Origin: a virus
Reading direction: 5' to 3' (one strand)
Virus record (IMG/VR): IMGVR_UViG_3300028844_001649
Coordinates: 1-24,377 of that record
Length of the DNA: 24,377 nt
This document shows positions 3,738-22,973 of this stretch, piece after piece; the first letter of the stretch is position 1, and the number at the start of each line of letters is the position of its first letter. Under the pieces are notes generated by a model. That model was not told the origin of the DNA. It ran no database searches and worked only from the letters and a program-made list of their open reading frames with translations. Both the position numbers and the translations under genes were made by a program.

Positions 3738-4025
3738 TTATCTCCCTGCTACTACGTCTGGTGATCCTTGTATTCTGGTATGTCCACAAGTGTCAGAATC
3801 ACCAACTAAAATTACTGGTTTACCTTCTGCTATCACAGATCCTGATCCTCCTCTGGTCACTGCCATACAATGTATAGCACAACCTGGAGCACCGCAACAT
3901 GGATGAGGAGTAACTGGACTTCCAGGTCCAACTACTGCTCTGCCATTGGCAACCACAGATCTGGCGCCTTGTACTGCGGCTCCTCCTGCTGAATTAACGT
4001 CACCTCTTCTAACTACGGCTGGCAT
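3738..4025 (-). CDS. PAAR-domain tail spike-tip protein
   Basis: This 95-aa protein is almost entirely a PAAR domain. PAAR proteins form the sharp, metal-binding cone at the end of the central spike of contractile tails (gp5.4 in T4) and help puncture the host envelope. Seen here: the N-terminal MPAVVRRGDV; a first turn with H41, C43, C44, C49, H52 and C53; Gly-rich repeats; and a C-terminal turn SDTCGHTRIQGSPDV with C80 and H82. Several of these His/Cys residues are candidate ligands for the tip metal ion. The RBS AAAGGA overlaps the end of the preceding 103-aa gene. The length is normal for a free-standing phage PAAR protein. Confidence 0.9.
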   Translation of the reverse strand: MPAVVRRGDVNSAGGAAVQGARSVVANGRAVVGPGSPVTPHPCCGAPGCAIHCMAVTRGGSGSVIAEGKPVILVGDSDTCGHTRIQGSPDVVAGR

Positions 4026-4028
4026 GTA

Positions 4029-4340
4029 TTATCCTTTTAGCAAACTTGGTTTCTTTGGTTGTATGATTCCTGATGTGGCTTGTTCATAACTTTGTTTTAC
4101 TGATTCATTAGCATCAAATATCATAGCAACTGCACTCTTATTTATCGTCACATTTTTGTCCAATTCCATGGTCAATGCTGATGGTACCATACGCACTTTA
4201 CCTGATGGGTCTGCCATCACTGTGCATGGTTTAGATACTTCATAGTAATTGTCTCTCATGCCGTCTGTGACTTTGGCCACTACTTCCTCGCCTGTGACTA
4301 ATTTCAATGTGTATATTTCGTTGTCAATTAATGGTATCAT
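4029..4340 (-). CDS. Small beta-rich protein, possibly Sm-like fold, 103 aa
   Basis: This 103-aa protein has an N-terminal pattern IYTLKLVTGEEVVAKVTD and then YYEVSKPCTVMADPSGKVRMVPS. This resembles the strand arrangement of Sm/LSm-like proteins (a G-E-x-V-x-G/A type second strand), followed by a Lys-rich tail. Sm1/Sm2 signatures are not clear, so no RNA-binding role is claimed. The start ATG at 4340 overlaps the glutaredoxin stop (ATGA) and has AAGGA upstream. It sits between glutaredoxin and PAAR. Function unknown. Confidence 0.65.
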   Translation of the reverse strand: MIPLIDNEIYTLKLVTGEEVVAKVTDGMRDNYYEVSKPCTVMADPSGKVRMVPSALTMELDKNVTINKSAVAMIFDANESVKQSYEQATSGIIQPKKPSLLKG

Positions 4341-4588
4341 GGTTGTTCCTTTATTTTATTTTCAATGTCCTCTTTGGTCATTTCTGCTAGTTCTGTGTAT
4401 CCATCACAAAATAACTCACCTCTATGATATATCTGTGGCACTGTTTTATGCCCTGCTTCTATCAAAAACTGTCTAGACGTAGTTTGTTGTGACACATCAA
4501 TGATACTGAACGGTATTTGATACTGCTCTAATATGCTTTTGGTCAATGCACAATACATACAATCTGGTTTTGAGTATACTTTTAACAT
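4337..4588 (-). CDS. Glutaredoxin
   Basis: This is an 83-aa glutaredoxin. Motifs seen are the CxxC redox centre C10-M-Y-C13 in YSKPDCMYC, the cis-proline segment TVPQIY (P51) and the glutathione-site turn CDGYTEL (about residues 61-67). Phage glutaredoxins donate electrons to class Ia ribonucleotide reductase by reducing the C-terminal Cys pair of NrdA, and this window encodes that enzyme at 7037-10516. The ATG at 4588 is chosen over the longer frame from 4672 because GGAG lies 9 bases upstream and glutaredoxin homology begins at once. The extra 28 residues would overlap the divergent desaturase gene. It leads a minus-strand unit that continues into PAAR. Confidence 0.9.
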   Translation of the reverse strand: MLKVYSKPDCMYCALTKSILEQYQIPFSIIDVSQQTTSRQFLIEAGHKTVPQIYHRGELFCDGYTELAEMTKEDIENKIKEQP

Positions 4589-4605
4589 ATTGTCTTGTCT
4601 CCGCT

Positions 4606-4613
4606 TATAAATA
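4606..4613 (+). promoter_or_regulatory. T4-type late promoter (TATAAATA)
   Basis: This is a perfect plus-strand copy of the T4 late -10 element TATAAATA, recognised in T4 by the gp55 late sigma factor with gp33 and the gp45 clamp. Transcription would start near 4619, about 12 bases before the ATG at 4631. It is the only plus-strand promoter needed in the window because the desaturase here is the only plus-strand gene. Minus-strand relatives (GATAAATA) lie before the genes at 12527, 17082 and 21504. Confidence 0.6.
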
Positions 4614-4630
4614 TAATTATGATAAAATTC

Positions 4631-5431
4631 ATGGATACCATAAAAAATTATAACAAAGTTAGGTATGCTCAAGCGACCTGTTATTTGCTCGTTATTTGGG
4701 CCATTACTCTACACTTTTCATGGACACTATTGTTTATAGGATTAGCATTAGGTTGGACATTGTTTTTAATTGGGTTGGGTGTTAGTTTGCACAAGTACTG
4801 CTCACACAGAGCATTACAACCGCGTAACAACGTCATACAACACCTCCTATTGTATTTAGGTACATTGTGTACCCTAGGAACTCCGCTGGAGTTTGCGGCT
4901 GGACATAGAACTCATCACAAGTATTCTGATTCTAATCAAGATCCATTTGTGTTGACTGATTCTATTTGGAACAACATCAAAGTATGGTTTTTATGGGTAG
5001 ATACCACTAAAATTAATGCTAGAATTATCATTGACCTAATGCGAAATCCTACAATTAAATTTTACCATCAACACTACTGGAAAATATGGTTACCATTACC
5101 TATCATACTGTTGATAGTCAATCCTGTGATCCTGGCATACTGCTTTGCACTGCCTGTGGTATATGTGTTGTTGGGTATGAGTTATGTTACTGTGATTGCA
5201 CACAGTAAGTGGTGCCAACGTATGTTTGGTGTTACAGGTGCTCATGGGCAAGACAACAAGTCCTGGAACTCTGCATTGTTCACTGTGTTATTTCCTGGAG
5301 AAGGACATCACGAATCACACCACCATAACCCAGGTGAAAGAAACTATTCAAGAATAAATGGAAGATGGGACTTTGGAAGTTCTGTTGCTGATATGTTTTC
5401 TAAGTATGATAAGTCTGCTTCAACTGAGTAG
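4631..5431 (+). CDS. Fatty-acid (acyl-CoA delta-9 type) desaturase 1
   Basis: This is a 266-aa integral-membrane desaturase. With iron, oxygen and an electron donor, the family puts a cis double bond into acyl chains. The three His boxes are present: H54-KYCS-H59, H92-RT-HH and H227-ES-HH. Hydrophobic spans lie at about residues 17-50, 68-88 and 153-190. ATG 4631 gives an N-terminus the same length as desaturase 3 relative to the shared HFSW. An in-frame ATG at 4619 and a TTG at 4595 exist, but none has a clear RBS. It is the only plus-strand gene and faces desaturase 2, overlapping it by 32 bp at the 3' ends. It is more divergent than the other two around box 2, with DPF in place of DPHSP. 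Confidence 0.9.
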   Translation: MDTIKNYNKVRYAQATCYLLVIWAITLHFSWTLLFIGLALGWTLFLIGLGVSLHKYCSHRALQPRNNVIQHLLLYLGTLCTLGTPLEFAAGHRTHHKYSDSNQDPFVLTDSIWNNIKVWFLWVDTTKINARIIIDLMRNPTIKFYHQHYWKIWLPLPIILLIVNPVILAYCFALPVVYVLLGMSYVTVIAHSKWCQRMFGVTGAHGQDNKSWNSALFTVLFPGEGHHESHHHNPGERNYSRINGRWDFGSSVADMFSKYDKSASTE

Positions 5432-6233
5432 TATTAATTTTTTTACCCACTAATTGAATAAACCACCAACCTAAATCCCATTCGCCTTTGACCAATGCGT
5501 TTTTGGCAGTAGCAGGATTGACATGATGATTTTCATGGTTACCTTCACCGGGTACTAACACTGCCATCAACTTAGAATTAAAAGTTCTGTCTTGTGTGTC
5601 CCAATTGGTGTAGCCAATTTTTTTGTGTAACCAGTCATTGTGTGCCAACACTGTGATGTATGATATACCTGAGAACACATACACAATGGGCAAGAAGTAA
5701 AAGTATGTGGCTATCTGTGGTGATAATCCAAATAAAAATACAAACCATGCCAAGTTAATTTTAAAGTAATGCTTGTGAAAAAATTTATGATCTTTACACA
5801 CAGTTAAATCTTTGATTGTTCTTGGATTGATTGCATATGTAGGAAAATAATAAAACCAAAGTTTTATGGATCTCCATACACCGCCGCCTTCTAAATTAGG
5901 CGAGTGTGGATCACCTTCATGATCAGAAAATTTATGATGCTTTCTGTGTGTGGCGGCCCATGATATGTTGGAACCCAATGATGTAATTGTGGATGCAAAT
6001 AACAGTATCCATCTGCATAATCTATTTTTAGGGGTAAACATTCTGTGTGCAGACCATTTGTGCAACGATCCTACTCCAATGAGATACAATACCCAGCCAG
6101 CACATAAACCTGCTAGAAACATTTTCCAATCCCAATATGCAGTGAGTCCTACAAACAAACCTATGTATGCAAATGCTTGAAGCATCTTCATTTTTTTGTC
6201 TAAAGGAAAATTCTTTTTAATCCAATGTTTCAT
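5400..6233 (-). CDS. Fatty-acid (acyl-CoA delta-9 type) desaturase 2
   Basis: This 277-aa membrane desaturase is paralogous to its two neighbours. His boxes are H58-KWSA-H63, H96-RK-HH and H233-EN-HH, and box 2 is followed by FSDHEGDPHSP as in stearoyl-CoA desaturases. Two pairs of membrane spans are visible, at about residues 18-55/75-95 and 160-198. Its start overlaps the end of desaturase 3 by 17 bp with AGGA in the overlap, so the two are coupled. Its 3' end overlaps convergent desaturase 1. It probably acts in the host inner membrane, raising lipid unsaturation; the electron donor is not encoded here. Confidence 0.92.
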   Translation of the reverse strand: MKHWIKKNFPLDKKMKMLQAFAYIGLFVGLTAYWDWKMFLAGLCAGWVLYLIGVGSLHKWSAHRMFTPKNRLCRWILLFASTITSLGSNISWAATHRKHHKFSDHEGDPHSPNLEGGGVWRSIKLWFYYFPTYAINPRTIKDLTVCKDHKFFHKHYFKINLAWFVFLFGLSPQIATYFYFLPIVYVFSGISYITVLAHNDWLHKKIGYTNWDTQDRTFNSKLMAVLVPGEGNHENHHVNPATAKNALVKGEWDLGWWFIQLVGKKINTTQLKQTYHT

Positions 6234-7005
6234 TTGCTATGTCCTGTTTAATAAACCAAAAGCCAATATCTATATCTTTGTCAGTCACTGAGTTTTTGGC
6301 AGCCCCAGGGTACTCATGATGATTGTTATGATTACCATCTCCAGGTAACAAACAACATATTATTTTACTATTATATACGTGATCAAACTTATCAAAGTTT
6401 GTGTAGCCAACATGTTTATTAATTAAGTTATGGCAATGAGTGCCTACAGTGAGCCAACCCATGGTTAAACACAAATATAATTGTGGTACCAAGTAGCAGT
6501 ATATTAATGCCCAAGGAGATATTGCAGTCAGTGTTAACGCCAATGCAATGTGTATGCCATAATAGTATCTTGCAAACCATTGATGATCTTTATCGTTAAC
6601 AATGTCTTGAATTAGTTTATGATCATATACTTTTCTAAGGTCTAACAATAAAAAAAATATTCTCCAAAAACTTCCATACTTAGGTGAATGTGGATCTTTT
6701 TCAGTGTCAGAGTTAGGATGATGTACCCTGTGTATGGCCGCCCACACCAGAGTATTTCCAAAACCACATAAAGTAGCAAATGCTAATAGCAGTATTTTAC
6801 AAAATCTATTTTTAGGTGTAAAGGCTCGATGTGCTGACATCTTATGTAACCCTCCAGATACTCCTATCAACCAGAATGTCCATCCCAACATAATTCCTAC
6901 CAACAAACCCTGCCAGGAGAAATGCATGATCATACCCACAATGGCACTAAGCCATAGTGTGTTCTGAAATAACATTAATAGTGAGTACCACCCAATTAAT
7001 TGCAT
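6217..7005 (-). CDS. Fatty-acid (acyl-CoA delta-9 type) desaturase 3
   Basis: This is a 262-aa membrane desaturase. His boxes are H54-KMSA-H59, H92-RV-HH (then PNSDTEKDPHSP) and H226-NN-HH. The last, GDGNHNNHH, is close to the GEGWHNNHH of bacterial delta-9 desaturases. Hydrophobic spans lie at about residues 8-50, 70-90 and 150-190. The ATG at 7005 has only a weak RBS (GGTAAG); M11 is an alternative start. It lies 31 bp after nrdB and is coupled to desaturase 2. A TATAAT hexamer (7036-7041, minus) overlapping the nrdB stop could be a local -10 element, but no good -35 is present. Confidence 0.92.
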   Translation of the reverse strand: MQLIGWYSLLMLFQNTLWLSAIVGMIMHFSWQGLLVGIMLGWTFWLIGVSGGLHKMSAHRAFTPKNRFCKILLLAFATLCGFGNTLVWAAIHRVHHPNSDTEKDPHSPKYGSFWRIFFLLLDLRKVYDHKLIQDIVNDKDHQWFARYYYGIHIALALTLTAISPWALIYCYLVPQLYLCLTMGWLTVGTHCHNLINKHVGYTNFDKFDHVYNSKIICCLLPGDGNHNNHHEYPGAAKNSVTDKDIDIGFWFIKQDIANETLD

Positions 7006-13599: not shown

Positions 13600-14047
13600 G
13601 TATGTCTCTCATGTCTCTAATCCAAAGAGACAATGTATCGGAAACTTTTTGCATACCTGCATGATCTAACACAGGTGCAATATCGTACACACAAGTTCTT
13701 CCTTGGTCATATAATTTTATAGAAGGATCATTGATTGGTTTTTGGCCTGCCACATATGCATCTTTTAATCCCACTTGAGCACAGTATATTTCTAATGCTT
13801 GAATATCTTCCACATCATCAATGGTAAACAATGCAATAGATCCTGCAACACTTTGTGATAAAAATTCTTGTCCACGTTGTACTTGTTCCAACAACGGTCT
13901 ATCGCCGGCTGACTTAATGTATTCTAAATCCAAGTTCCAAGACAAACATTGTCCATAATTTACATGGTGTTGTAGGTTTTCTCCAGTGCACCATTGAGGG
14001 CCGTAGTATAATAAATATTTACACTGCAAACGATTCGCCACATCCAC
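13592..14047 (-). CDS. Hypothetical protein, 151 aa
   Basis: No family is recognised. The sequence has LLYYGPQWCTGENLQHHVNYG near the N-terminus, then a helical region LLEQVQRGQEFLSQ, an alpha/beta stretch SIALFTIDDVEDIQALEIYC, and a Trp-containing C-terminal helix. There is no ATG start. The frame begins with GTG at 14047, with other possible starts at GTG 14041 and TTG 14029, and all lie inside the 3' end of the IscA-like gene. Translation is probably coupled to that gene. The coupling to an Fe-S carrier and to an exonuclease gives no firm clue to function. Confidence 0.6.
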   Translation of the reverse strand: MDVANRLQCKYLLYYGPQWCTGENLQHHVNYGQCLSWNLDLEYIKSAGDRPLLEQVQRGQEFLSQSVAGSIALFTIDDVEDIQALEIYCAQVGLKDAYVAGQKPINDPSIKLYDQGRTCVYDIAPVLDHAGMQKVSDTLSLWIRDMRDIHD

Positions 14048-14324
14048 ATGAGGCTGTTGCGTTTGGGTTTACTACTTTCAAGTATGATCCTCCAAACTCT
14101 TTGACGTAATCAATAGTACAACCCAACACATACATTTCTGCTACTTTATCAAGTACCAATATGTCTTGAATCAATGTACCTTCTTCAACTTCGTCTACTG
14201 TGTTCCAATTATACTGAAAACCAGAACATCCTCCACCTTGTACTGTGAGGTGTGCATACTTTTTATTAGTATCCTCTGTGGCTTTTCTTAAATATTCTTT
14301 GGCTGACTCTGTTATGTTAATCAT
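14019..14324 (-). CDS. A-type iron-sulfur carrier (IscA/ErpA/HesB family)
   Basis: This is a 101-aa HesB-domain protein of normal length. The three conserved ligand cysteines are C33 in QGGGCSGFQY and C93/C95 in the C-terminal ASCGCGESFAV. The PNA motif before the CGC and the internal strand pattern also fit. A-type carriers receive Fe-S clusters from a scaffold and pass them to target apoproteins. Phage copies are known in marine T4-like phages, but their target is unknown. GAGGAT lies 8 bases before the ATG. It follows two tiny genes behind the sigma70-type promoter at 14577-14606. Confidence 0.93.
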   Translation of the reverse strand: MINITESAKEYLRKATEDTNKKYAHLTVQGGGCSGFQYNWNTVDEVEEGTLIQDILVLDKVAEMYVLGCTIDYVKEFGGSYLKVVNPNATASCGCGESFAV

Positions 14325-14991: not shown

Positions 14992-16314
14992 TTACCTTTT
15001 TTCTCTGCCTAAATCTGTGTCTATGGATGCTTCTGGTTCTGCCTGTATTGCTTCTTCGTCGTCAACTCCAATGTCTGCTTCATCACCAAGTTCAGGTGCA
15101 ACTGCTCCTGCGTCAATGGATGCTTCACCAGTGATTGGTCCCATGGCTTTTTCTAAGTCAGACTTGGCAGTTTCTAATGCACCAATCAAAGTTGATATTG
15201 CTTGGTTAGTTCCATCATAGTATGCCTGTGTCTGATTAATACCAATTTCTTGCTTCATGGTTTGAGCAAGATTTGGTAAATCTTTGTACTGCATTTCTGC
15301 AATGTCTTCATACATTTTTGTAATTCTGTCTACCACATCTTGTGCGGCTAGTGTGACTTGAGCATCACCAACATCTGCTTCGTTGATTTGTTTGCTTTCT
15401 GGTAGTCTGCTCATGTACTTCTTTGCAATGGCATCTCTTCTGGCTTGATCAGCAGATGATATTGAACCTGCTTTGGCATGTCTTTTATTGATGTCCATCA
15501 CTGTTGCTTGTTCTTGTTTGGATCCATGTTGCATCACAACTGCTAGTGCGTTTTCGGCATGTAGGTTGTTTGCTTCGTTGTCAGCATAATCTTTTTTAGT
15601 GAATCTTTCGTTTGTGATTTCTACTGCTTCACCTAATGAATCTCTATTGTCTTGAATGTATGCAATGATGTCTCTCCATACTGCATTCATGGTTGAATCT
15701 GTGCATAGTTGACTCAACTGATCAAACTGTGCCATAGTTCCATCTACGTAAATGTTTACTGGTGCATCAACTTCAAAGTCTGTGCCATCATCTAATGTGC
15801 CCATTTCTGTATTTTCTCTGACTTTCTTTTTCTTGTGTGTGCCACATGATGATTCTGCATAATCCTGATTCTTTTCTTGTGCCGCTTCTTCGGCCGCTTC
15901 TCTGTCTTTTTTAACTTCTGCTTCTGTGGATCCAATGTAGTCTGCTAGATCTTGATCACTCATTGCACCAATAGGCTCTCCGCCTCCTGATTCTTCAATT
16001 TCATCATCTTCTTCATCTGTGATACCCTGTGTAGGCATTGAAGGCATGGATTTTTGTTGTCCTGTGCCGCCTGCATATGGCTCTGACAGTGCTTGTTGCA
16101 TCATCAATGCTTTTAAGTATGCTGGGTTTGATTGAGAAGTGTGCCTGTTTGTACTGCTTTGTACTTCTGCAACTATGGCAGATGTTTTTGCTAGTAATGT
16201 TTTGGCCTGTTCTAAGTTTAACTTTGACACATCAATTTTGGCATTGAAGTGGCTTTCCATAACTTTAGACACCTGTTGAGTTTTATTTTTTGCTAGTTCT
16301 TGAAGTTTCATCAT
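14992..16314 (-). CDS. Putative virion or head-assembly protein, acidic, 440 aa
   Basis: This 440-aa protein is very acidic and helical. It has an N-terminal helical part (to about 75, ending NPAYLKALMMQQAL), a Gly/Glu/Asp-rich linker (98-150), a middle domain (165-300) and a C-terminal helical part with an extremely acidic tail (405-435). Such a layout is known from scaffold-like and structural proteins of marine T4-like phages, but no catalytic motif is seen. Two internal sites fit the T4 prohead-protease pattern [I/L]-x-E|A: after E229 (SLGE|A) and after E312 (QINE|A). Two ATG codons in tandem start the gene after AAAGGA. An assignment to head assembly is inference. Confidence 0.65.
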   Translation of the reverse strand: MMKLQELAKNKTQQVSKVMESHFNAKIDVSKLNLEQAKTLLAKTSAIVAEVQSSTNRHTSQSNPAYLKALMMQQALSEPYAGGTGQQKSMPSMPTQGITDEEDDEIEESGGGEPIGAMSDQDLADYIGSTEAEVKKDREAAEEAAQEKNQDYAESSCGTHKKKKVRENTEMGTLDDGTDFEVDAPVNIYVDGTMAQFDQLSQLCTDSTMNAVWRDIIAYIQDNRDSLGEAVEITNERFTKKDYADNEANNLHAENALAVVMQHGSKQEQATVMDINKRHAKAGSISSADQARRDAIAKKYMSRLPESKQINEADVGDAQVTLAAQDVVDRITKMYEDIAEMQYKDLPNLAQTMKQEIGINQTQAYYDGTNQAISTLIGALETAKSDLEKAMGPITGEASIDAGAVAPELGDEADIGVDDEEAIQAEPEASIDTDLGREKR

Positions 16315-16768
16315 TAAATCCTTTTTCTTGACAGTATTTAGCCAAATCTATCATGTCTTGTAACTTAAATGTGGCTGTGTCTAATTTGTGTTCATTGTTG
16401 GACAGTTTAGTAAACATTAACTCTTGACGAAGTTCGTCATCTGTGGTTTGTGTGATATGCTCTTGTATCCTTATTTCTGCTTCTAATGATGATACTTTGG
16501 CATCGCATTTGATAATGTCGTTGGCTTCATTTTTATGATATTTGGCCAACACACAATATGCAATGGCATTTCTACCAGTGGCAAATTCGTGTATGAATTC
16601 ATCATTGCGATATACTTGATAGTATCCGTTTAATCTTGAAATTGTAAAATCTTTGAAAACTTTAAAATCATCTTTGGTTTTGATGATTACATTGTTGCCT
16701 AATTTTTTTAGGGTTGCTGACGCAATTGATTTAAACTTTCTGAAGGCGAGATCGGTACTGACTGACAT
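16283..16768 (-). CDS. Hypothetical T4-like phage protein, 161 aa
   Basis: No function is recognised. The start at ATG 16768 (MSVSTDLAFRKFKS) is preferred to an upstream in-frame GTG at 16780, which lies inside the previous gene. The N-terminal half is alpha/beta (NNVIIKTKDDFKVFK; LNGYYQVYRNDEFIHEFATG). The C-terminal half is a long charged helix (AEIRIQEHITQTTDDELRQE) ending in a basic tail. The 3' end overlaps the 440-aa gene by 32 bp. It is probably expressed late with its neighbours. Confidence 0.65.
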   Translation of the reverse strand: MSVSTDLAFRKFKSIASATLKKLGNNVIIKTKDDFKVFKDFTISRLNGYYQVYRNDEFIHEFATGRNAIAYCVLAKYHKNEANDIIKCDAKVSSLEAEIRIQEHITQTTDDELRQELMFTKLSNNEHKLDTATFKLQDMIDLAKYCQEKGFNDETSRTSKK

Positions 16769-16773
16769 GGCCG

Positions 16774-17082
16774 TTACCACAATACTTTAGTTAATAGCCA
16801 TCCTACGATACCTGCTAACATTGTGATAGCCGCGCCTGCCCAAGTAATCAACTGAGTTGATCTTCTGCGATCTAAGTGTGTGATTAAGTTTTTAATCTCT
16901 GCTACACTTGATTCTAGTGAATTAACTTTCTCTTCAACAGTATCCAGTTTTGATTCCAATGCGTTGTACCTCTCAGCACAGAGTTCCACATGAGCCTCTA
17001 AATTCTCTTTTTCAATCTGAGTCGTTGACTGCTTTAACAATGCCGTAATCTCCAATAGGATAATTCGAGCATTTACTTTCAA
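16774..17082 (-). CDS. Coiled-coil protein with C-terminal membrane anchor (XhlA-like), 102 aa
   Basis: Residues 20-70 form a strong heptad-type coiled coil (ALESKLDTVEEKVNSLESSV). A basic patch (HLDRRRSTQ) follows, then one C-terminal membrane span (LITWAGAAITMLAGIVGWLL). This architecture, with the coil exposed and the tail anchored, is that of XhlA-type phage proteins that assist holins, and of some spanin-like or virion membrane proteins. There is no in-frame ATG, so the start is probably TTG at 17082. A late-type promoter lies at 17139-17146. A lysis role is a hypothesis from architecture only. Confidence 0.6.
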   Translation of the reverse strand: MKVNARIILLEITALLKQSTTQIEKENLEAHVELCAERYNALESKLDTVEEKVNSLESSVAEIKNLITHLDRRRSTQLITWAGAAITMLAGIVGWLLTKVLW

Positions 17083-17138
17083 TGAGCCTATGTTTTGCCT
17101 GTTTGTGCCGTGTTAAGTTTGTAATTGCCTTATAACTT

Positions 17139-17146
17139 TATTTATC
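17139..17146 (-). promoter_or_regulatory. Late-type promoter (GATAAATA) for the 17082-14673 unit
   Basis: Minus-strand GATAAATA (seven of eight matches to TATAAATA) lies just inside the end of the 143-aa gene that stops at 17145. It is 57 bp before the TTG start of the coiled-coil gene. The 62-bp gap between the genes contains no other recognisable signal. Confidence 0.45.
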
Positions 17147-17576
17147 ACAAGGGGTTGATAATTGATGAGAAATATGTGTTGATGCGTGTGCCTTGAGTGT
17201 TGATCATGTGGTGTATTTTGGCAGTTTCAGTTAATCCTTCAATCACAGGCACTGAATCAAAATCATGGTTTAAAGAACCTACAGGTGATTGCACCGTGCC
17301 GTATGAATCCATATGCTCTGAATCAAATCCAAATGACCATACGTCGTATTTAAACACAGACGGCATGTAATACTCACCAAAATTATATTGATCAATATCT
17401 ATGTTGGATATTTTTTTAGGTGAATGTGTGATGATAGGTTGTGATCTCAACGAAATCAACTGTATGAATGTTTCGTAATTGCGTTGTTGATTACGCATGA
17501 ATTTTTCTGCGTCTGTTTTGGGTCTGCGTACAAAATTAGTACACGTGATATCTATCAGTGTGTAACATATAATCAT
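17145..17576 (-). CDS. Hypothetical protein, 143 aa
   Basis: No family is recognised. The protein has a charged, Arg/Gln-rich helical part (FVRRPKTDAEKFMRNQQRNY), then a segment rich in aromatic and polar residues (IDIDQYNFGEYYMPSVFKYDVWSFGF). The ATG at 17576 overlaps the stop of the upstream gene (ATGA), so the two are coupled. It ends at 17145 next to a late-type promoter. There is no membrane segment or signal peptide. Confidence 0.6.
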   Translation of the reverse strand: MIICYTLIDITCTNFVRRPKTDAEKFMRNQQRNYETFIQLISLRSQPIITHSPKKISNIDIDQYNFGEYYMPSVFKYDVWSFGFDSEHMDSYGTVQSPVGSLNHDFDSVPVIEGLTETAKIHHMINTQGTRINTYFSSIINPL

Positions 17577-17827
17577 TTGCGTGTCAGTGCCAATACTACC
17601 AACAGTTTATCTAATGCTTCTTTGATTGCCGGATTTGAATTTGCTAACTGCTCCAATTCTGATTGATATGTTTCAAGTTGTTGCCAATAGGTAGGAGGTT
17701 CTTGAGGAGTGATCCTTTGTCTGAGTATGCCTGCTCCTGCAATTTTACGTCTGTACACTGTTTTACCACCATCAGGTGATTCATACACGTACTTTTCTTC
17801 TAGTTCTAATTGTGTCTGTTTGGACAT
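17573..17827 (-). CDS. Hypothetical protein, 84 aa
   Basis: The start at ATG 17827 (MSKQTQLELEEKYVYESPDG) is preferred. The longer frame from TTG 17872 or ATG 17857 would run through the terminator hairpin at 17857-17889. The N-terminal half is charged (GGKTVYRRKIAG). The C-terminal half is a helix (YWQQLETYQSELEQLANS...) ending in LLVVLALTRK. No clear RBS is present. It is coupled to the next gene by an ATGA overlap. Function unknown. Confidence 0.6.
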   Translation of the reverse strand: MSKQTQLELEEKYVYESPDGGKTVYRRKIAGAGILRQRITPQEPPTYWQQLETYQSELEQLANSNPAIKEALDKLLVVLALTRK

Positions 17828-17856
17828 ACACGTACTTATCTGTATGCTTACGGCCA

Positions 17857-17889
17857 TAAAAAAAGGCACCAAAATAATGATGCCTTTTT
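17857..17889 (-). terminator. Rho-independent terminator after the 18254-17916 gene
   Basis: In the minus-strand RNA, an A run and GGCAUC pair with GGUGCC and a U run (one G-U pair), with an 8-base loop AUUAUUUU. The stem is therefore up to 11 bp with a U tract of 7. It lies 27 bp after the stop of the short virion-like gene and isolates that gene as a single-gene unit. Confidence 0.8.
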
Positions 17890-18416: not shown

Positions 18417-18986
18417 TTACGATTTCGTAGGAGTAATTTTAGCAGACTTCATGAATATCATGTATAAGTCTGTGTTGATAGGACGTCTAACTGTTTGTAG
18501 TATTCTAGTGATGGCTGAACGTTTAACGGCAGGAGATTGTTTCTGCCAATCCTGTGCTATTCTTCGCATCCATAACTGATCACCTTTAAGGCCTCTGAAA
18601 CGTCTTTGCAGTATCATCATGAACTGTGAAAAGTCTTGTTCATTTAATATGCCATTGCCCATGTCACGCAATATACGTTTTAATCTCAACTCAGGCAATA
18701 CAATATCCCAGTTGTTGAACAACTTGTCTGCGTATTTCTTTTGTTCTGTGATCAACGTAATGATGTTGTACAAGTCTGTTTGTGATTGTCTGAAACCTTT
18801 GAAGTTCTGAAATGACATAGTGTTTTGTGCATATTTGATTGCTTGAGATTGATCAATGTAATACATGAACTTTAGCATCAACATGTGATCAAACATCAAT
18901 CCTGCCAGTGTCTGTACATCTGTGCCTTTCACAGACTCCAGTTTACGATACATTCTGGCTTCAACTAATTCTTTGATAAATTCCAT
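18417..18986 (-). CDS. Putative internal head protein with capsid-targeting leader, 189 aa
   Basis: This is an all-helical protein of 189 residues, rich in Met, Gln, Arg and aromatic residues. It has no recognised domain and no membrane span, although the segment FDHMLMLKFMYYIDQ is hydrophobic. Its N-terminus MEFIKELVE|AR fits the T4 prohead-protease site [I/L]-x-E|A. It is very like the capsid-targeting leaders of the T4 internal head proteins and Alt, which are cut off in the prohead. The ATG overlaps the stop of the 588-aa gene (TAATG). Function after packaging is unknown. Confidence 0.6.
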   Translation of the reverse strand: MEFIKELVEARMYRKLESVKGTDVQTLAGLMFDHMLMLKFMYYIDQSQAIKYAQNTMSFQNFKGFRQSQTDLYNIITLITEQKKYADKLFNNWDIVLPELRLKRILRDMGNGILNEQDFSQFMMILQRRFRGLKGDQLWMRRIAQDWQKQSPAVKRSAITRILQTVRRPINTDLYMIFMKSAKITPTKS

Positions 18987-20752
18987 TATATGTTTTTAGC
19001 AAAGTTGGCTCTGCTAAACCTCAATCTGTCTACTAGTTTTAATCCTGCTGACACATAACCTTCATGCCCTGCTTCGCCATCCACAGATGCTTGAATACCA
19101 GATCCTTGTGAATCCAATGCTCTGATAACCTGTGTCTTGGCCACTGCAATGGTATTGAATATGTTGAATATCACCAACACCGCCTGCATGTTTTTGCTCA
19201 CATACTGTTCCATTCTTTGATACTTGACCTCAGTGACTTTGGTTTTTGCAAACTGTAAAAACTGTGATGCCATGTTGTTGAAGTTGCCTTCTCTGACTTT
19301 TTGATTGGCAAATGCTTTCATCAGTGCTGGCAAGTCTGCCATTTTTAATTCACGCAATGTTGCAGGATCAAACAATCCATCAATGGCTTGAGCATTGGCA
19401 GAAACGTTGGATGCAATTTTGTTCAGTATGTCTTCAGGTATATCAATCTTTGGTGCATCTTGCATCTTAGGACCAAAAAATTGTATGTCGCCTGCTTTGA
19501 ACACACCCATGTTATCAAATGGTGAACCATTGGCAGTGTGTACTGCAATACCAAACTTGGATTGAGCAATCTTCTTGCCTAGATCTGACGTGGCATCAAT
19601 AGAGTATGTCACTGTGTTGGGTGTGAATGTAATCATGTTGTTTGTAGTGTTGGGAGTACCTGCATATAGCAGATCCCCCATGAACCATGCATCACCTGAT
19701 GGTGTTGCTGATTCCAATGATGACCAAATGGCTTTATACATATTGATCAATCCTGTTCTATCTCCAGGACGCATGTTCATAATACGTTCTAGTTCTTCGG
19801 GCGATTTAGCAATGCCGTTATAACCTTTGGCAGTGTATCCTGCTTTGTCAGTTAAAAAGAATTCTCCGTTTTGTCTACCAAATATGATTGCTGGTTTACC
19901 GTCCCACTTAATAGTGATGTCTTGTGCCTTTGATGGCAACTGCTTGAGCATTGTAACCGCTTGTAAGGCACCTTTAGATCCTTGTGAGAATATCAAATCC
20001 TCAGGATGTTCTATACGAGCACCTTCAATCAACACAGTCATACTTTGGTTTACTATTCTATCTCTCAAACGTGCCATGAAATTTTGATCTTCAAATGTCA
20101 GTCCATCTCTGGCAAATGCATCTTTGGCATCCTGTGTCATGGCTTGATAGTCTTTGTTGTTTTTAATTTTTGCTATAATTGATTCTACATTTTCTAAATC
20201 TTTAGCAGATCCGCCAACCAGTACTTTAGCAATAGTATCAGGATCTTTGGAAATCAGTTTGTTAGTGACTCTGTCTGTGAGTCCGTTTTTGTATGACCAT
20301 TTCATGCCTTTGTACTTGGCAATAGAGGCCATCATAATGTGTCTGTGTACACCTTTGAACTGTGAATCACCTGATGCTGACAATGAAAACTTTTGCCATG
20401 TAGGATCACCAAACATAAAGTCTGTTTGCACATACCCATTACCTGGGTTGCCTGCAATAGGTGTTTTCATGTGTACGTTGTCACCCGACTTGGCAATGTC
20501 TTGATCTTCAACTCCTGATGTTTTTAGTTTGGCAATCAGTTGCTCTTTGGATGTTTGCGTGATATCTACTGCAAGATCTAAATCACCTGATGATGCTTTT
20601 TTGCCTGTGGTACCCAGCATGTTATCACTCAAAGGCAGTCCTGTGAGTTTTTCTAAATAATTAATTGTGGGTTGTATGTCTTGAAGATTGATTCTTTGTG
20701 TAGCAGGTTTACCATCTACTTTAAATACATTGCCACCTTCTTTGAGAATCAT
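18986..20752 (-). CDS. Two-domain protein: Pol-beta-type nucleotidyltransferase motif plus ligase-like KxDG domain
   Basis: This 588-aa protein is probably a DUF6267-type protein of T4-like phages (named from memory, unchecked). Residues 54-63 (SSGDLDLAVD) give the D57-x-D59 pair after a Ser/Gly turn, and D111 in VQTDFMF fits the third Asp of Pol-beta-type nucleotidyltransferases. Residues 279-290 (ITIKWDGKPAII) match motif I (K-x-D-G, K282) of ATP-dependent DNA/RNA ligases. WFMGDLLYAGT (357-365) resembles motif III, and KFGIAVHT (399-406) may be IIIa. Motifs IV and V are not clear, so ligase activity is doubtful. Residues 430-588 are mostly helical. The start MILKE|GG fits a prohead-protease leader. 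GGAG precedes the ATG and overlaps the upstream stop. Confidence 0.65.
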   Translation of the reverse strand: MILKEGGNVFKVDGKPATQRINLQDIQPTINYLEKLTGLPLSDNMLGTTGKKASSGDLDLAVDITQTSKEQLIAKLKTSGVEDQDIAKSGDNVHMKTPIAGNPGNGYVQTDFMFGDPTWQKFSLSASGDSQFKGVHRHIMMASIAKYKGMKWSYKNGLTDRVTNKLISKDPDTIAKVLVGGSAKDLENVESIIAKIKNNKDYQAMTQDAKDAFARDGLTFEDQNFMARLRDRIVNQSMTVLIEGARIEHPEDLIFSQGSKGALQAVTMLKQLPSKAQDITIKWDGKPAIIFGRQNGEFFLTDKAGYTAKGYNGIAKSPEELERIMNMRPGDRTGLINMYKAIWSSLESATPSGDAWFMGDLLYAGTPNTTNNMITFTPNTVTYSIDATSDLGKKIAQSKFGIAVHTANGSPFDNMGVFKAGDIQFFGPKMQDAPKIDIPEDILNKIASNVSANAQAIDGLFDPATLRELKMADLPALMKAFANQKVREGNFNNMASQFLQFAKTKVTEVKYQRMEQYVSKNMQAVLVIFNIFNTIAVAKTQVIRALDSQGSGIQASVDGEAGHEGYVSAGLKLVDRLRFSRANFAKNI

Positions 20753-20753
20753 G

Positions 20754-21269
20754 TTAAACTCCTGCTAACTGTTTAATTTGTTGTAGTTCAGGGTTATTTG
20801 TTGGATTGTTTTGTGCCGCTTTTGTGGCTAATGCTATTATTTGTTTGTCTTTTTGTTGTTGTGTCATTGTGGTTGCTATTTGTTTGCCACTGGCAATACT
20901 CAAGTTTAATATTTTTTCAAACTCATTTGCCGCTATGTTTCTGTTTCTAGGTTGCTGACTGATTTTACTCACTGCTTGATTGACTGCTGTTTTGAGTTCA
21001 GCATCTGCTGATGATAGACTCAATGTACCTAACAATGTTTGATCAATCCAATTTGTTAAATATCCAGATAGTTTGTTTCCTAAAGGTTGATAGTTGTTCT
21101 GTGCTTCAGCCTTGCCTAAGGATTTGATCCATGTCTTAGATGACATGTTTGCAATCTGACCAATTTGATTAGATTTCACTGCTGTCTGTACGCCAGTCAT
21201 AGCCGCACCGCCTACTTGTTTGAGTTTGTCTAGGAAACCTGCTTCGTTGATGATATCATTAATTTTCAT
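20754..21269 (-). CDS. Putative internal head protein with capsid-targeting leader, 171 aa
   Basis: This protein of 171 residues is rich in Gln, Asn, Ala and Ser, mostly helical, with no recognised domain. Its N-terminus MKINDIINE|AG fits the T4 prohead-protease site [I/L]-x-E|A after a nine-residue amphipathic leader, as in T4 IPIII-type proteins. The segment after the leader (FLDKLKQVGGAAMTGVQTAV) is a basic amphipathic helix. It overlaps the 81-aa gene by 11 bp and ends just before the 588-aa gene. A DNA-associated head protein is possible but unproven. Confidence 0.6.
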   Translation of the reverse strand: MKINDIINEAGFLDKLKQVGGAAMTGVQTAVKSNQIGQIANMSSKTWIKSLGKAEAQNNYQPLGNKLSGYLTNWIDQTLLGTLSLSSADAELKTAVNQAVSKISQQPRNRNIAANEFEKILNLSIASGKQIATTMTQQQKDKQIIALATKAAQNNPTNNPELQQIKQLAGV

Positions 21270-21504
21270 CTTTGCGTCTCACTGACCTAGTGAATTTTCT
21301 TGGATCTCTATTTTTAATAGCATTGACAAATTTACGTTGTAAATCTTCTGCTTGTTCAGGAGTGTACAAACTATCAATCTGCTCAAAGATGTTGATTGCA
21401 CTGTGTATGATATTGTTCGCACGACTTTCTACTATGTGGTTCTTGTCCTTACGGATTGACATAGTATTAAGTTCTTCTAGTATGCTTCTTGTTTTACGTT
21501 GCAT
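21259..21504 (-). CDS. Small basic protein, 81 aa, first gene of the head-protein cassette
   Basis: This charged helical protein of 81 residues starts MQRKTRSILEELNTMS and ends with a very basic tail (FTRSVRRKDEN). It contains IVE|S at residues 24-27 and ILEE near residues 8-11, only loosely like a prohead-protease site, so membership of the leader-bearing group is less certain than for the next three genes. GGAG precedes the ATG and a GATAAATA late-type promoter lies 22-29 bp upstream. Function unknown. Confidence 0.6.
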   Translation of the reverse strand: MQRKTRSILEELNTMSIRKDKNHIVESRANNIIHSAINIFEQIDSLYTPEQAEDLQRKFVNAIKNRDPRKFTRSVRRKDEN

Positions 21505-21525
21505 AGGTTTCTCCGAGTCAACAAG

Positions 21526-21533
21526 TATTTATC
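21526..21533 (-). promoter_or_regulatory. Late-type promoter (GATAAATA) for the 21504-18417 cassette
   Basis: Minus-strand GATAAATA lies 22 bp before the ATG at 21504, so transcription would start near 21520 with a leader of about 16 bases carrying GGAG. A weaker sigma70-like pair (TATAAT at 21555-21560, TGAACA 17 bp upstream at 21578-21583) lies just before it and may add early transcription. The gap after the helicase holds nothing else. Confidence 0.5.
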
Positions 21534-21560
21534 GTCAACTCATACCAAACTAATATTATA

Positions 21561-22973
21561 TTATTGTGATTTTAAATTGTTCAGCATAGACTTGAGTTTT
21601 GTGCTCTGTACTTCTGCCGTTACTTTAGGTTGTTCTTGTGTTTCTTGTGTTTGCACAGGCTTTTCGCCCACAGTAGTTGTGGTTTTAATAGACTTCATCA
21701 GTTCTGATGGTGCTTCTCTGGAATGTGATTGTTGTCCTTCTTCACCCAGGTCAATGATTCTCAATGAACCTACATTGAACTCTAAATCCACTTTGGTGCC
21801 CACACCTGAACTACTTCTAGTTTTCATTAACTGTATTTGATATCTACCACGTTCTCTCATTGCTCTACTTGTGAATATACCAAACACATTGTCTGCAGTA
21901 TTGATCTTTGACAGTCCACCTGCAATATGTGAATGATCAAACTCTACTTCTTCCACTGCTGATCTGTTTAACTGCGAAGCAGTCACAAACACAATGTCCA
22001 ACTCTTTGGCCAAGTTACGCAACTCTTCAGACACATACTTGTCTTTCACAAACAAATCGTTGGGTGATACTTTGGCTGACACTGGCATGATCAAATCCAA
22101 ATAGTCCACACATAAAAATTCAATCTTGTATCCTTTGTTGATTTCTAGTTCTTTTAAATATGCTCTAATATCATTGACATTGCTTTGTGCAGGCAAATAT
22201 TTAATTTGCAAGTTACCTGCTTTCTTTTTCACCAACTTGACTTTCATTTCTACTTCATCTAAGTTTTTGAATATTTGATTGGATGCAGTGTTAGTCATCA
22301 TGGAGTCTATACGCATGGCACACAATCCTTCAGATAGTTCTAATGTGATGTACACACCATTTAATCCTTGTTGTGCCCAGTTCACGGATAAGTTTTGCAT
22401 GAACAAACTCTTACCAGATCCTGATCCACCAGCAAATATTTGCAGTTCGCCTTTGTTGAATCCACCATACAATGGTCTATCTACCATGGGCCATCCTGTG
22501 CTGACTTGTCCGTTGGATGCTTTCAACAATTCTAATCTACCTTTGGGATCTTCAAAGTAATCTGTGCCCATGTCTTTGGTCAATGATATTTGCACTGCAT
22601 CTTTGATTAATTTTTCTACAGGATTATAATTGCCCTTCTCCAACATGTCTGCTGATTTAAGAATAGCACGTTCTAGTTCTTGACGTCTAGTAAATGATTC
22701 AAACTCTTCAAAAAACCAAGAGTAATGATCATCTCTGATGTCTGGCACTGCTTGGCACTTGGTCCTAGTCACTGCATAAACTTGTTCTAAAGTAGGTATG
22801 GCTTTGTGCTTGTCCACATGTTCTTTGATAAACTCAGCCACAGGTTGTAACGACCTATCAAAGTTTTTAGGATTGTATATGTTCTGTACTCTGATATACG
22901 ATTCAGCATCGTTCAACATCATTTCCAAAAACAATTTCTGCATTTCTATAGTGTATTCTTTTGTGTCAGCCAT
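21561..22973 (-). CDS. Replicative DNA helicase (T4 gp41 / DnaB-like)
   Basis: This is a 470-aa hexameric 5'-3' DNA helicase that opens the fork and works with the adjacent primase. The N-terminal helical domain (1-130) is followed by the RecA-like core: Walker A GGSGSGKS (182-189), catalytic Glu in ITLELSEG (E212), Walker B FLCVDYLDLI (D290), the sensor TASQLNRS (about 335) and the DNA-loop and arginine-finger region ending MKTRSSSGVG. The C-terminus is a Gln/Thr-rich tail, a possible partner-binding site. The gene begins 8 bp after the primase stop with AAGGAAA inside the primase end. Length agrees with T4 gp41 (475 aa). Confidence 0.95.
   Translation of the reverse strand: MADTKEYTIEMQKLFLEMMLNDAESYIRVQNIYNPKNFDRSLQPVAEFIKEHVDKHKAIPTLEQVYAVTRTKCQAVPDIRDDHYSWFFEEFESFTRRQELERAILKSADMLEKGNYNPVEKLIKDAVQISLTKDMGTDYFEDPKGRLELLKASNGQVSTGWPMVDRPLYGGFNKGELQIFAGGSGSGKSLFMQNLSVNWAQQGLNGVYITLELSEGLCAMRIDSMMTNTASNQIFKNLDEVEMKVKLVKKKAGNLQIKYLPAQSNVNDIRAYLKELEINKGYKIEFLCVDYLDLIMPVSAKVSPNDLFVKDKYVSEELRNLAKELDIVFVTASQLNRSAVEEVEFDHSHIAGGLSKINTADNVFGIFTSRAMRERGRYQIQLMKTRSSSGVGTKVDLEFNVGSLRIIDLGEEGQQSHSREAPSELMKSIKTTTTVGEKPVQTQETQEQPKVTAEVQSTKLKSMLNNLKSQ

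Follow-up and report, generated by a model that had tools for sequence, protein, structure and literature searches.

A predicted head-cargo operon of a T4-superfamily jumbo phage with a candidate head-protease site between two enzyme domains

Proteins carried as cargo in the heads of T4-like phages are best known from T4 itself. The T4 head protease gp21 recognizes the motif L/I-X-E, and in the internal protein IPIII residues 4 and 7 serve for targeting and residues 8 and 10 for processing (PMC9026906). Here, we analysed a 24,377-base viral fragment from IMG/VR (IMGVR_UViG_3300028844_001649; the record contains no further contig), hereafter called the window, and within it a cassette of four genes, D, A, B and C. 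The cassette has in common with T4 IPI-IPIII and Alt a short leader ending in [L/I]-X-E, a late-type promoter and a probable place inside the head (PMC9026906), together with a head protease of the same family, which is present in the cassette's relatives. It differs from the T4 internal proteins in that we found no sequence kinship between them and the mature proteins of the cassette, the leader of B has five residues, the residue following the cut (P1') is often Ser or Thr, and a second site lies between the two enzyme domains of B. It is best read as a variant of the T4 internal proteins, in which the new and unexpected feature would be an enzyme made as a precursor whose domains are separated by a second protease site.

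Two other systems resemble the cassette in part. Ejection proteins of the phiKZ/SPN3US type are head proteins with propeptides that are cut after Glu by an S77-related protease (PMC9026906, PMC5694885). The phiKZ motif is S/A-X-E, and initially no sequence similarity to T4 was seen (PMC9026906), whereas the clade of the cassette has a T4-type gp23 and L/I-X-E. Jumbo phages also encode repair pairs composed of RlaP (RNA-ligase-associated Pol beta nucleotidyltransferase) and an RNA ligase (PMC7824862). These resemble B in combining a Pol beta-type nucleotidyltransferase with a covalent ligase-like enzyme, but have been described as RNA repair enzymes and not as head cargo (PMC7824862). The second domain of B belongs to DUF6267 (PF19782), a family found in cyanophages, HTVC008M, Melnitz and DLP_6; the group of the window differs from other DUF6267 proteins in that DUF6267 is fused to a preceding Pol X-like domain, a protease site separating the two. 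The literature search returned no paper naming DUF6267 and no description of a ligase-like nature or packaging of this family.

Our proposal, to which we assign a probability of roughly 0.7, is that D-A-B-C is a late-transcribed head-cargo operon of a T4-superfamily jumbo phage. The precursors would be built into the prohead core and then cut after [IL]xE by a gp21-type (S77) protease. A and C would each shed a 9-residue leader, and B would be cut twice, after E5 and after E243, releasing a Pol X-like nucleotidyltransferase of ~238 aa with Gly-Gly at its N-terminus and a ligase-like DUF6267 enzyme of 345 aa. Once matured, the proteins would remain in the head and be ejected with the DNA, and the nucleotidyltransferase/ligase pair would most likely mend or seal broken nucleic-acid ends before phage gene expression, candidate substrates being tRNA cleaved as part of host defence, or the incoming genome at its ends and gaps. 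The conservation of the sites, the domain structure, the promoter, the synteny and the protease in relatives were all established computationally; from these we infer cleavage in the window phage, ejection and the repair role.

Predicted leader sites and promoter-like motif of the D-A-B-C operon

The gene order on the minus strand is primase, DnaB-like helicase, D, A, B, C, further small genes and class Ia ribonucleotide reductase. ORF D (21259-21504; 81 aa), the first gene of the operon, matches phrog_11854, 'virion structural protein' (PHROG E = 3e-16), and has relatives in PA5oct, CBB, RaK2 and Phosso, several of which carry the same annotation. ORF A (20754-21269; 171 aa) belongs to no known family, ORF B (18986-20752) encodes the 588-aa precursor of the Pol X-like nucleotidyltransferase and the DUF6267 protein, and ORF C (18417-18986) encodes a helical protein of 189 aa with relatives in Atu_ph07 and Phosso. 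B is preceded by a good Shine-Dalgarno sequence (AGGAG ahead of the ATG) and overlaps with C as TAATG. Because D has kin in the above jumbo phages and C in the Agrobacterium phage Atu_ph07, the virus is placed near T4-related jumbo phages rather than cyanophages.

The original prediction, which was made from the window alone, held that three consecutive genes start with leaders of the gp21 type, and all three lie on the minus strand where it had placed them (the arrow marks the predicted cut): MKINDIINE↓AG in A (leader at 21243-21269, residues 1-9, E9↓A10), MILKE↓GG in B (20738-20752, residues 1-5, E5↓G6) and MEFIKELVE↓AR in C (18960-18986, residues 1-9, E9↓A10). D has no short leader, though it had been included in the predicted cassette (18417-21504); a possible later site, HIVE↓SRA, is present at residue 26. 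When the leader pattern was defined as [IL]xE↓[AG] with P1 at residue 4-11, the background rate of matches, measured on the interior of the proteins encoded in the window, was 1.56%, in agreement with the 1-2% estimated beforehand. Exactly three of the 35 window genes match, namely the adjacent genes A, B and C. A run of three adjacent matches anywhere has a probability of p ~ 1.3e-4, so that the cluster is indeed unlikely to be accidental, and three or more matches in any arrangement have p ~ 0.017. Once P1' is relaxed to include Ser, the pattern is also matched by an IscA-like gene (MINITE↓SAKEY) and by a short ORF (MIIE↓SII); single leader matches therefore mean little.

Two scans identified 159 IMG/VR loci with homologues, and the alignment scan alone gave 80 loci, whereas a single-protein scan with B as the query gave no match. 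The counts below refer to related sequences, not to independent events. In the 30 full-length rows of B, including that of the window, P1 is Glu in every row and P1' is Gly in 29, while P3 is Leu (18), Ile (11) or Val (1) and P2 is occupied by at least nine different residues; relatives start MIILE↓GG, MNLFE↓GG, MYIKE↓GG, MLTE↓GG, MQIKQLLE↓GG or MNSYQTLLE↓GG. In the C family, the members of which share 21-59% identity, E9 is one of only three invariant columns (P1 Glu, 23/23; P3 Leu 16 and Ile 7; P1' Ala 12, Ser 9 and Thr 2). Nine relatives of A were found by tblastn, with starts such as MKINEITE↓A, MKINEIINE↓G and MKINEIIQVQE↓AP, and give the same picture. In both the B and C families, P3 and P1 are thus kept while P2 and leader length vary, as had been expected of homologues of a processed protein. 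The expected E↓A/G site was correct with respect to Glu but too narrow at P1', which in the clade of this phage is often Ser or Thr, and Asn in some gp23 proteins.

The sites are also concentrated in one part of these genomes. A family was scored as having a leader site when half or more of its members carry one; 29 of the 108 families located downstream of D qualified, compared with 1 of 141 upstream of the helicase (95 loci, p = 5e-11). The strict pattern of the T4 capsid-targeting sequence (CTS), counted on gene calls from a simple script, is rare in five whole phage genomes and richer in the block (5/95 versus 5/946, p = 0.001). Several stand-alone DUF6267 relatives of B have a T4-like leader of ten residues, in which positions 4 and 7 are aromatic, position 8 is L/I and position 10 is E (MTTFKDFLAE, MITFQTFIAE and MKSFSTFITE).

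A late-promoter-like sequence, GATAAATA, is located upstream of D-A-B-C (21526-21533, minus strand). Neither this sequence taken alone nor the count of the T4 late consensus, TATAAATA, is above chance in the window. However, in 78 of 95 relatives the 80 nt preceding D contain NATAAATA, compared with 2.1% of random stretches. The late-type promoter of the original prediction thus owes its credibility to conservation in relatives, the count in the window being at chance level, and NATAAATA upstream of the operon is a promoter-like motif that could serve late expression.

The predicted internal site and the two domains of ORF B

The second site of B, which the original prediction had missed, is the more telling of the two. 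The structural model of B (mean predicted local distance difference test score, pLDDT, 90.5) consists of two domains, and pLDDT falls below 50 solely in residues 1-4 and 222-244, two segments at whose ends the cuts E5↓G6 and E243↓G244 are predicted. The linker (20024-20089, minus strand; residues 222-243) is disordered and ends in LIE243. All 30 full-length rows contain [ILMV]xE in the linker ahead of the DUF6267 start, ARIxHxED, and among the rows with the site the length of the linker differs by up to ~20 residues.

The site is likewise found where the two domains are encoded separately. B is split into two genes at loci L043, L052 and L053, and the DUF6267 gene then has its own leader and site (MRFHQFNKPLLLE↓ADSRIQH in L043 and MKYATGFIQMLTE↓GARTPH in L052). 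Of 29 stand-alone DUF6267 proteins, 25 have an N-terminal extension, and [ILMV]xE is present in all 25 extensions (22 scored by script and 3 read from the script output). Conversely, A and B form one reading frame at locus L111, where the junction reads GLAE↓GGKIFK. In Atu_ph07 and Phosso, the split nucleotidyltransferase gene is leaderless and starts MGG, so that Met excision would leave the same Gly-Gly start as the predicted cut of B.

These features bear on the possibility that [IL]xE followed by a small residue is a structural or regulatory N-terminal element that is never cut, the proteins being ordinary intracellular enzymes. The conservation of GGNVFK after the B site and of R-M/L-Y/F-R after the C site points to some other constraint nearby and would suit such an element. 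However, the leader and the linker are the only segments of B with pLDDT below 50, and the leader is also the weakest part of the C model (about 52 versus 89.7 for the whole model). Moreover, P2 and the length of the leader are free to vary, the site is found again at the domain junction and on split genes, and leaderless genes keep the Gly-Gly start. We therefore consider an uncut element unlikely and prefer proteolytic processing, for which gene B predicts the new N-termini GGNVF and GARIE.

The first domain of B (20090-20737, minus strand; residues 6-221) contains GT..SGDLD (D57 and D59) and QTD (D111), and G47, S55, G56, D57, D59 and D111 are invariant in 30 relatives. Its model resembles the DNA polymerase lambda fold (Foldseek, best E = 9e-5, probability 1.00). 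Although the domain has no Pfam match to any nucleotidyltransferase family, its motif, third carboxylate and modelled palm fold assign it to the Pol beta/Pol X nucleotidyltransferase superfamily. The second domain (18989-20023, minus strand; residues 244-588) matches Pfam DUF6267 over residues 247-586 with E = 2e-47 (163 bits; cut-off, 27). It contains KWDG (K282) and EGxV...K (E564 and K572); K282, D284, G285 and D360 are invariant in 41 rows, and E564 and K572 are present in all 39 rows that reach them. K282-x-D-G, E564-G-x-V and K572 can be taken to represent motifs I, IV and V of ligases, which would make the domain ligase-like.

B is probably a two-domain enzyme that is packaged in the particle, cut in two inside it and delivered together with the viral DNA. 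Given its two domain types and the co-occurrence of Pol beta-type nucleotidyltransferases with RNA ligases in jumbo phages, a packaged end-repair pair is the most likely role, though we put it at somewhat under an even chance, with the choice between RNA and DNA left undecided. The most specific formulation is slightly more tentative: a head-protease polyprotein in which a nucleotidyltransferase and a ligase-like enzyme are made as one precursor, packaged, split by gp21 in the prohead and injected as an end-repair kit, from a conserved cargo locus beside the T4-superfamily replicative helicase. If B is packaged and split, the phage would arrive with nucleic-acid repair enzymes and could counter host damage before expressing its own genes.

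The DUF6267 block of HTVC008M (L002) also encodes a zeta-toxin/AAA-type P-loop kinase that starts MIPFILKE↓G (16733-17395) and a 5'-nucleotidase-like HAD protein (21299-21889), possible further end-processing enzymes.

Head protease, core proteins and virion data in relatives

The original prediction called for a gp21 homologue and for the same motif in gp23. A peptidase S77 (gp21-type) and gp23 are both present in all ten named relatives examined (S-WAM1, HTVC008M, Melnitz, Vibrio 2.275.O, C48C1, DLP_6, Atu_ph07, PA5oct, Phosso and CBB). In each gp23, LxE stands directly ahead of the conserved shell domain, the next residue being A, S, T, N or I; by comparison with T4, its position suggests that it is the maturation site. 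Among the window and 20 long IMG/VR relatives, both genes were found in one 196-kb contig alone, nearly all of the others being fragments without head genes.

Leaders of the same kind occur on genes near the head protease. PA5oct gp333, located between the portal and head protease genes, starts MKINDIITE↓GYY, nearly the leader of A, and Atu_ph07 genes in a gp333-like place start MKLTELFNPLTE↓SYY, MDFRQIRALLE↓G, MSIRKFLNIINE↓S and METGFEKLLE↓G. Such leaders on genes between portal and capsid raise the alternative that the gp21-cut proteins act as prohead core or scaffold components rather than as injected enzymes, and A, which is small and matches no domain family, would be compatible with this. 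In B, however, the polymerase carboxylates and KxDG/EGxV are invariant, which would be needless in a scaffold. A scaffold function for the cassette as a whole is therefore improbable, although it could still hold for A and C; for B, we retain packaging as an enzyme.

Virion proteomics of relatives covers the syntenic block (PMC6102473; PMC3037559), in line with the predicted packaging in the head. In the PA5oct record, 11 of the 14 genes after D are marked as detected by electrospray ionization tandem mass spectrometry (ESI-MS/MS), compared with 82 of the 262 other genes as transcribed from the record (p = 6e-4). One of the positives, gp253, is a homologue of B's nucleotidyltransferase domain (hhalign E = 4e-17). 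For Atu_ph07, 131 virion proteins were reported, mostly in clusters, one of which comprises CDS 31-76 (PMC6102473). The syntenic block, at about gp53-gp69 when counted from gp2 = ClpX, falls inside this cluster, a match at the level of the cluster. By our count, gp54-gp67 comprise the ART-like genes, C, both halves of B, and A. In cyanophages, the T4-GC190 protein was found in S-SM1 virions (PMC3037559); its gene lies in the helicase-primase interval adjoining DUF6267, and in S-ShM2 it has the leader MKKFSTFISE↓AV. It is thus very probable, from site, synteny and protease, that the cassette represents gp21-processed head cargo. Delivery into the host, also part of the original prediction, is a further step that we infer.

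Several observations weigh against this proposal. The presence in virions is that of homologues or syntenic genes of relatives rather than of the window virus, and the window's own gp21 lies outside the 24-kb fragment. PA5oct gp253 is leaderless yet present in virions, so the leader is not required, and some cyanophage DUF6267 proteins also have no leader. The leader motif predicts ESI-MS/MS status in PA5oct only modestly (8/93 versus 4/183, p = 0.018), and we therefore do not propose it as a marker of every head protein. As for T4-type targeting, A and C fit the CTS pattern in part, with a hydrophobic residue at 7 (Ile and Phe, respectively), but the 5-residue leader of B has no positions corresponding to targeting residues 4 and 7; we therefore take the site of B as a processing site. 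The fold matches of DUF6267 to RNA ligases are weak (E = 0.03-0.06), searches of its sequence and of the B and C profiles against PDB gave no convincing match, and hhalign of the DUF6267 profile against the Atu_ph07 RNA ligase gave none.

In addition, the PA5oct positives include ribonucleotide reductase, thymidylate synthase and UvsX, which indicates that some of them are contaminants. Taken further, this would mean that the proteins detected in virions of relatives had co-purified as contaminants and that the leaders cluster by chance. This explanation is very improbable, because the site is kept in dozens of relatives, the leader families are concentrated in the block, the block is enriched among the PA5oct positives and the late-type promoter is conserved. 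A signature that dozens of uncultured relatives share, and that singles out one genomic block, would allow head cargo to be read from sequence.

Further candidate head proteins and neighbouring genes

A 440-aa ORF (14992-16314, minus strand) has a longer leader, ending VSKVME↓S at residue 20, and matches phrog_14154, virion structural protein (E = 4e-8). Several relatives have VAKVME↓S or ARVIE↓N, and the product is probably a further head protein, the case being weaker than that for the cassette. A 99-aa ORF (17573-17872) contains KYVYE↓SPDGGKTVYRR, and its relatives start MIVNKITEAVIYE↓SPDGG; KYVYE↓SPDGG may represent a further site or simply a motif that is conserved.

The C model had no fold match in PDB, and PA5oct gp257, considered as a homologue of C, was rejected on comparison. 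In Atu_ph07 (L223, 11820-19483), consecutive genes start M[RK]W.QL[TN]E or MRWHQLIE, and several of them contain YRG motifs reminiscent of T4 Alt and other ADP-ribosyltransferases. Two members of this run were searched and had no Pfam match; the run is possibly an array of packaged paralogues.

Elsewhere in the window, we found a PAAR protein (3738-4025) with a score just below the Pfam cut-off, a glutaredoxin (4337-4672) and the IscA-like Fe-S protein (14019-14324). The IMG/VR contig 3300028829_002777 (L093) encodes a helicase 100% identical to that of the window and stops inside D; it represents the same or nearly the same virus and could lengthen the genome. Finally, three fatty-acid desaturase genes lie side by side at 4595-7005 (PF00487, E = 8e-13 to 3e-16), one on the plus strand and two on the minus strand, which is unusual for a phage.

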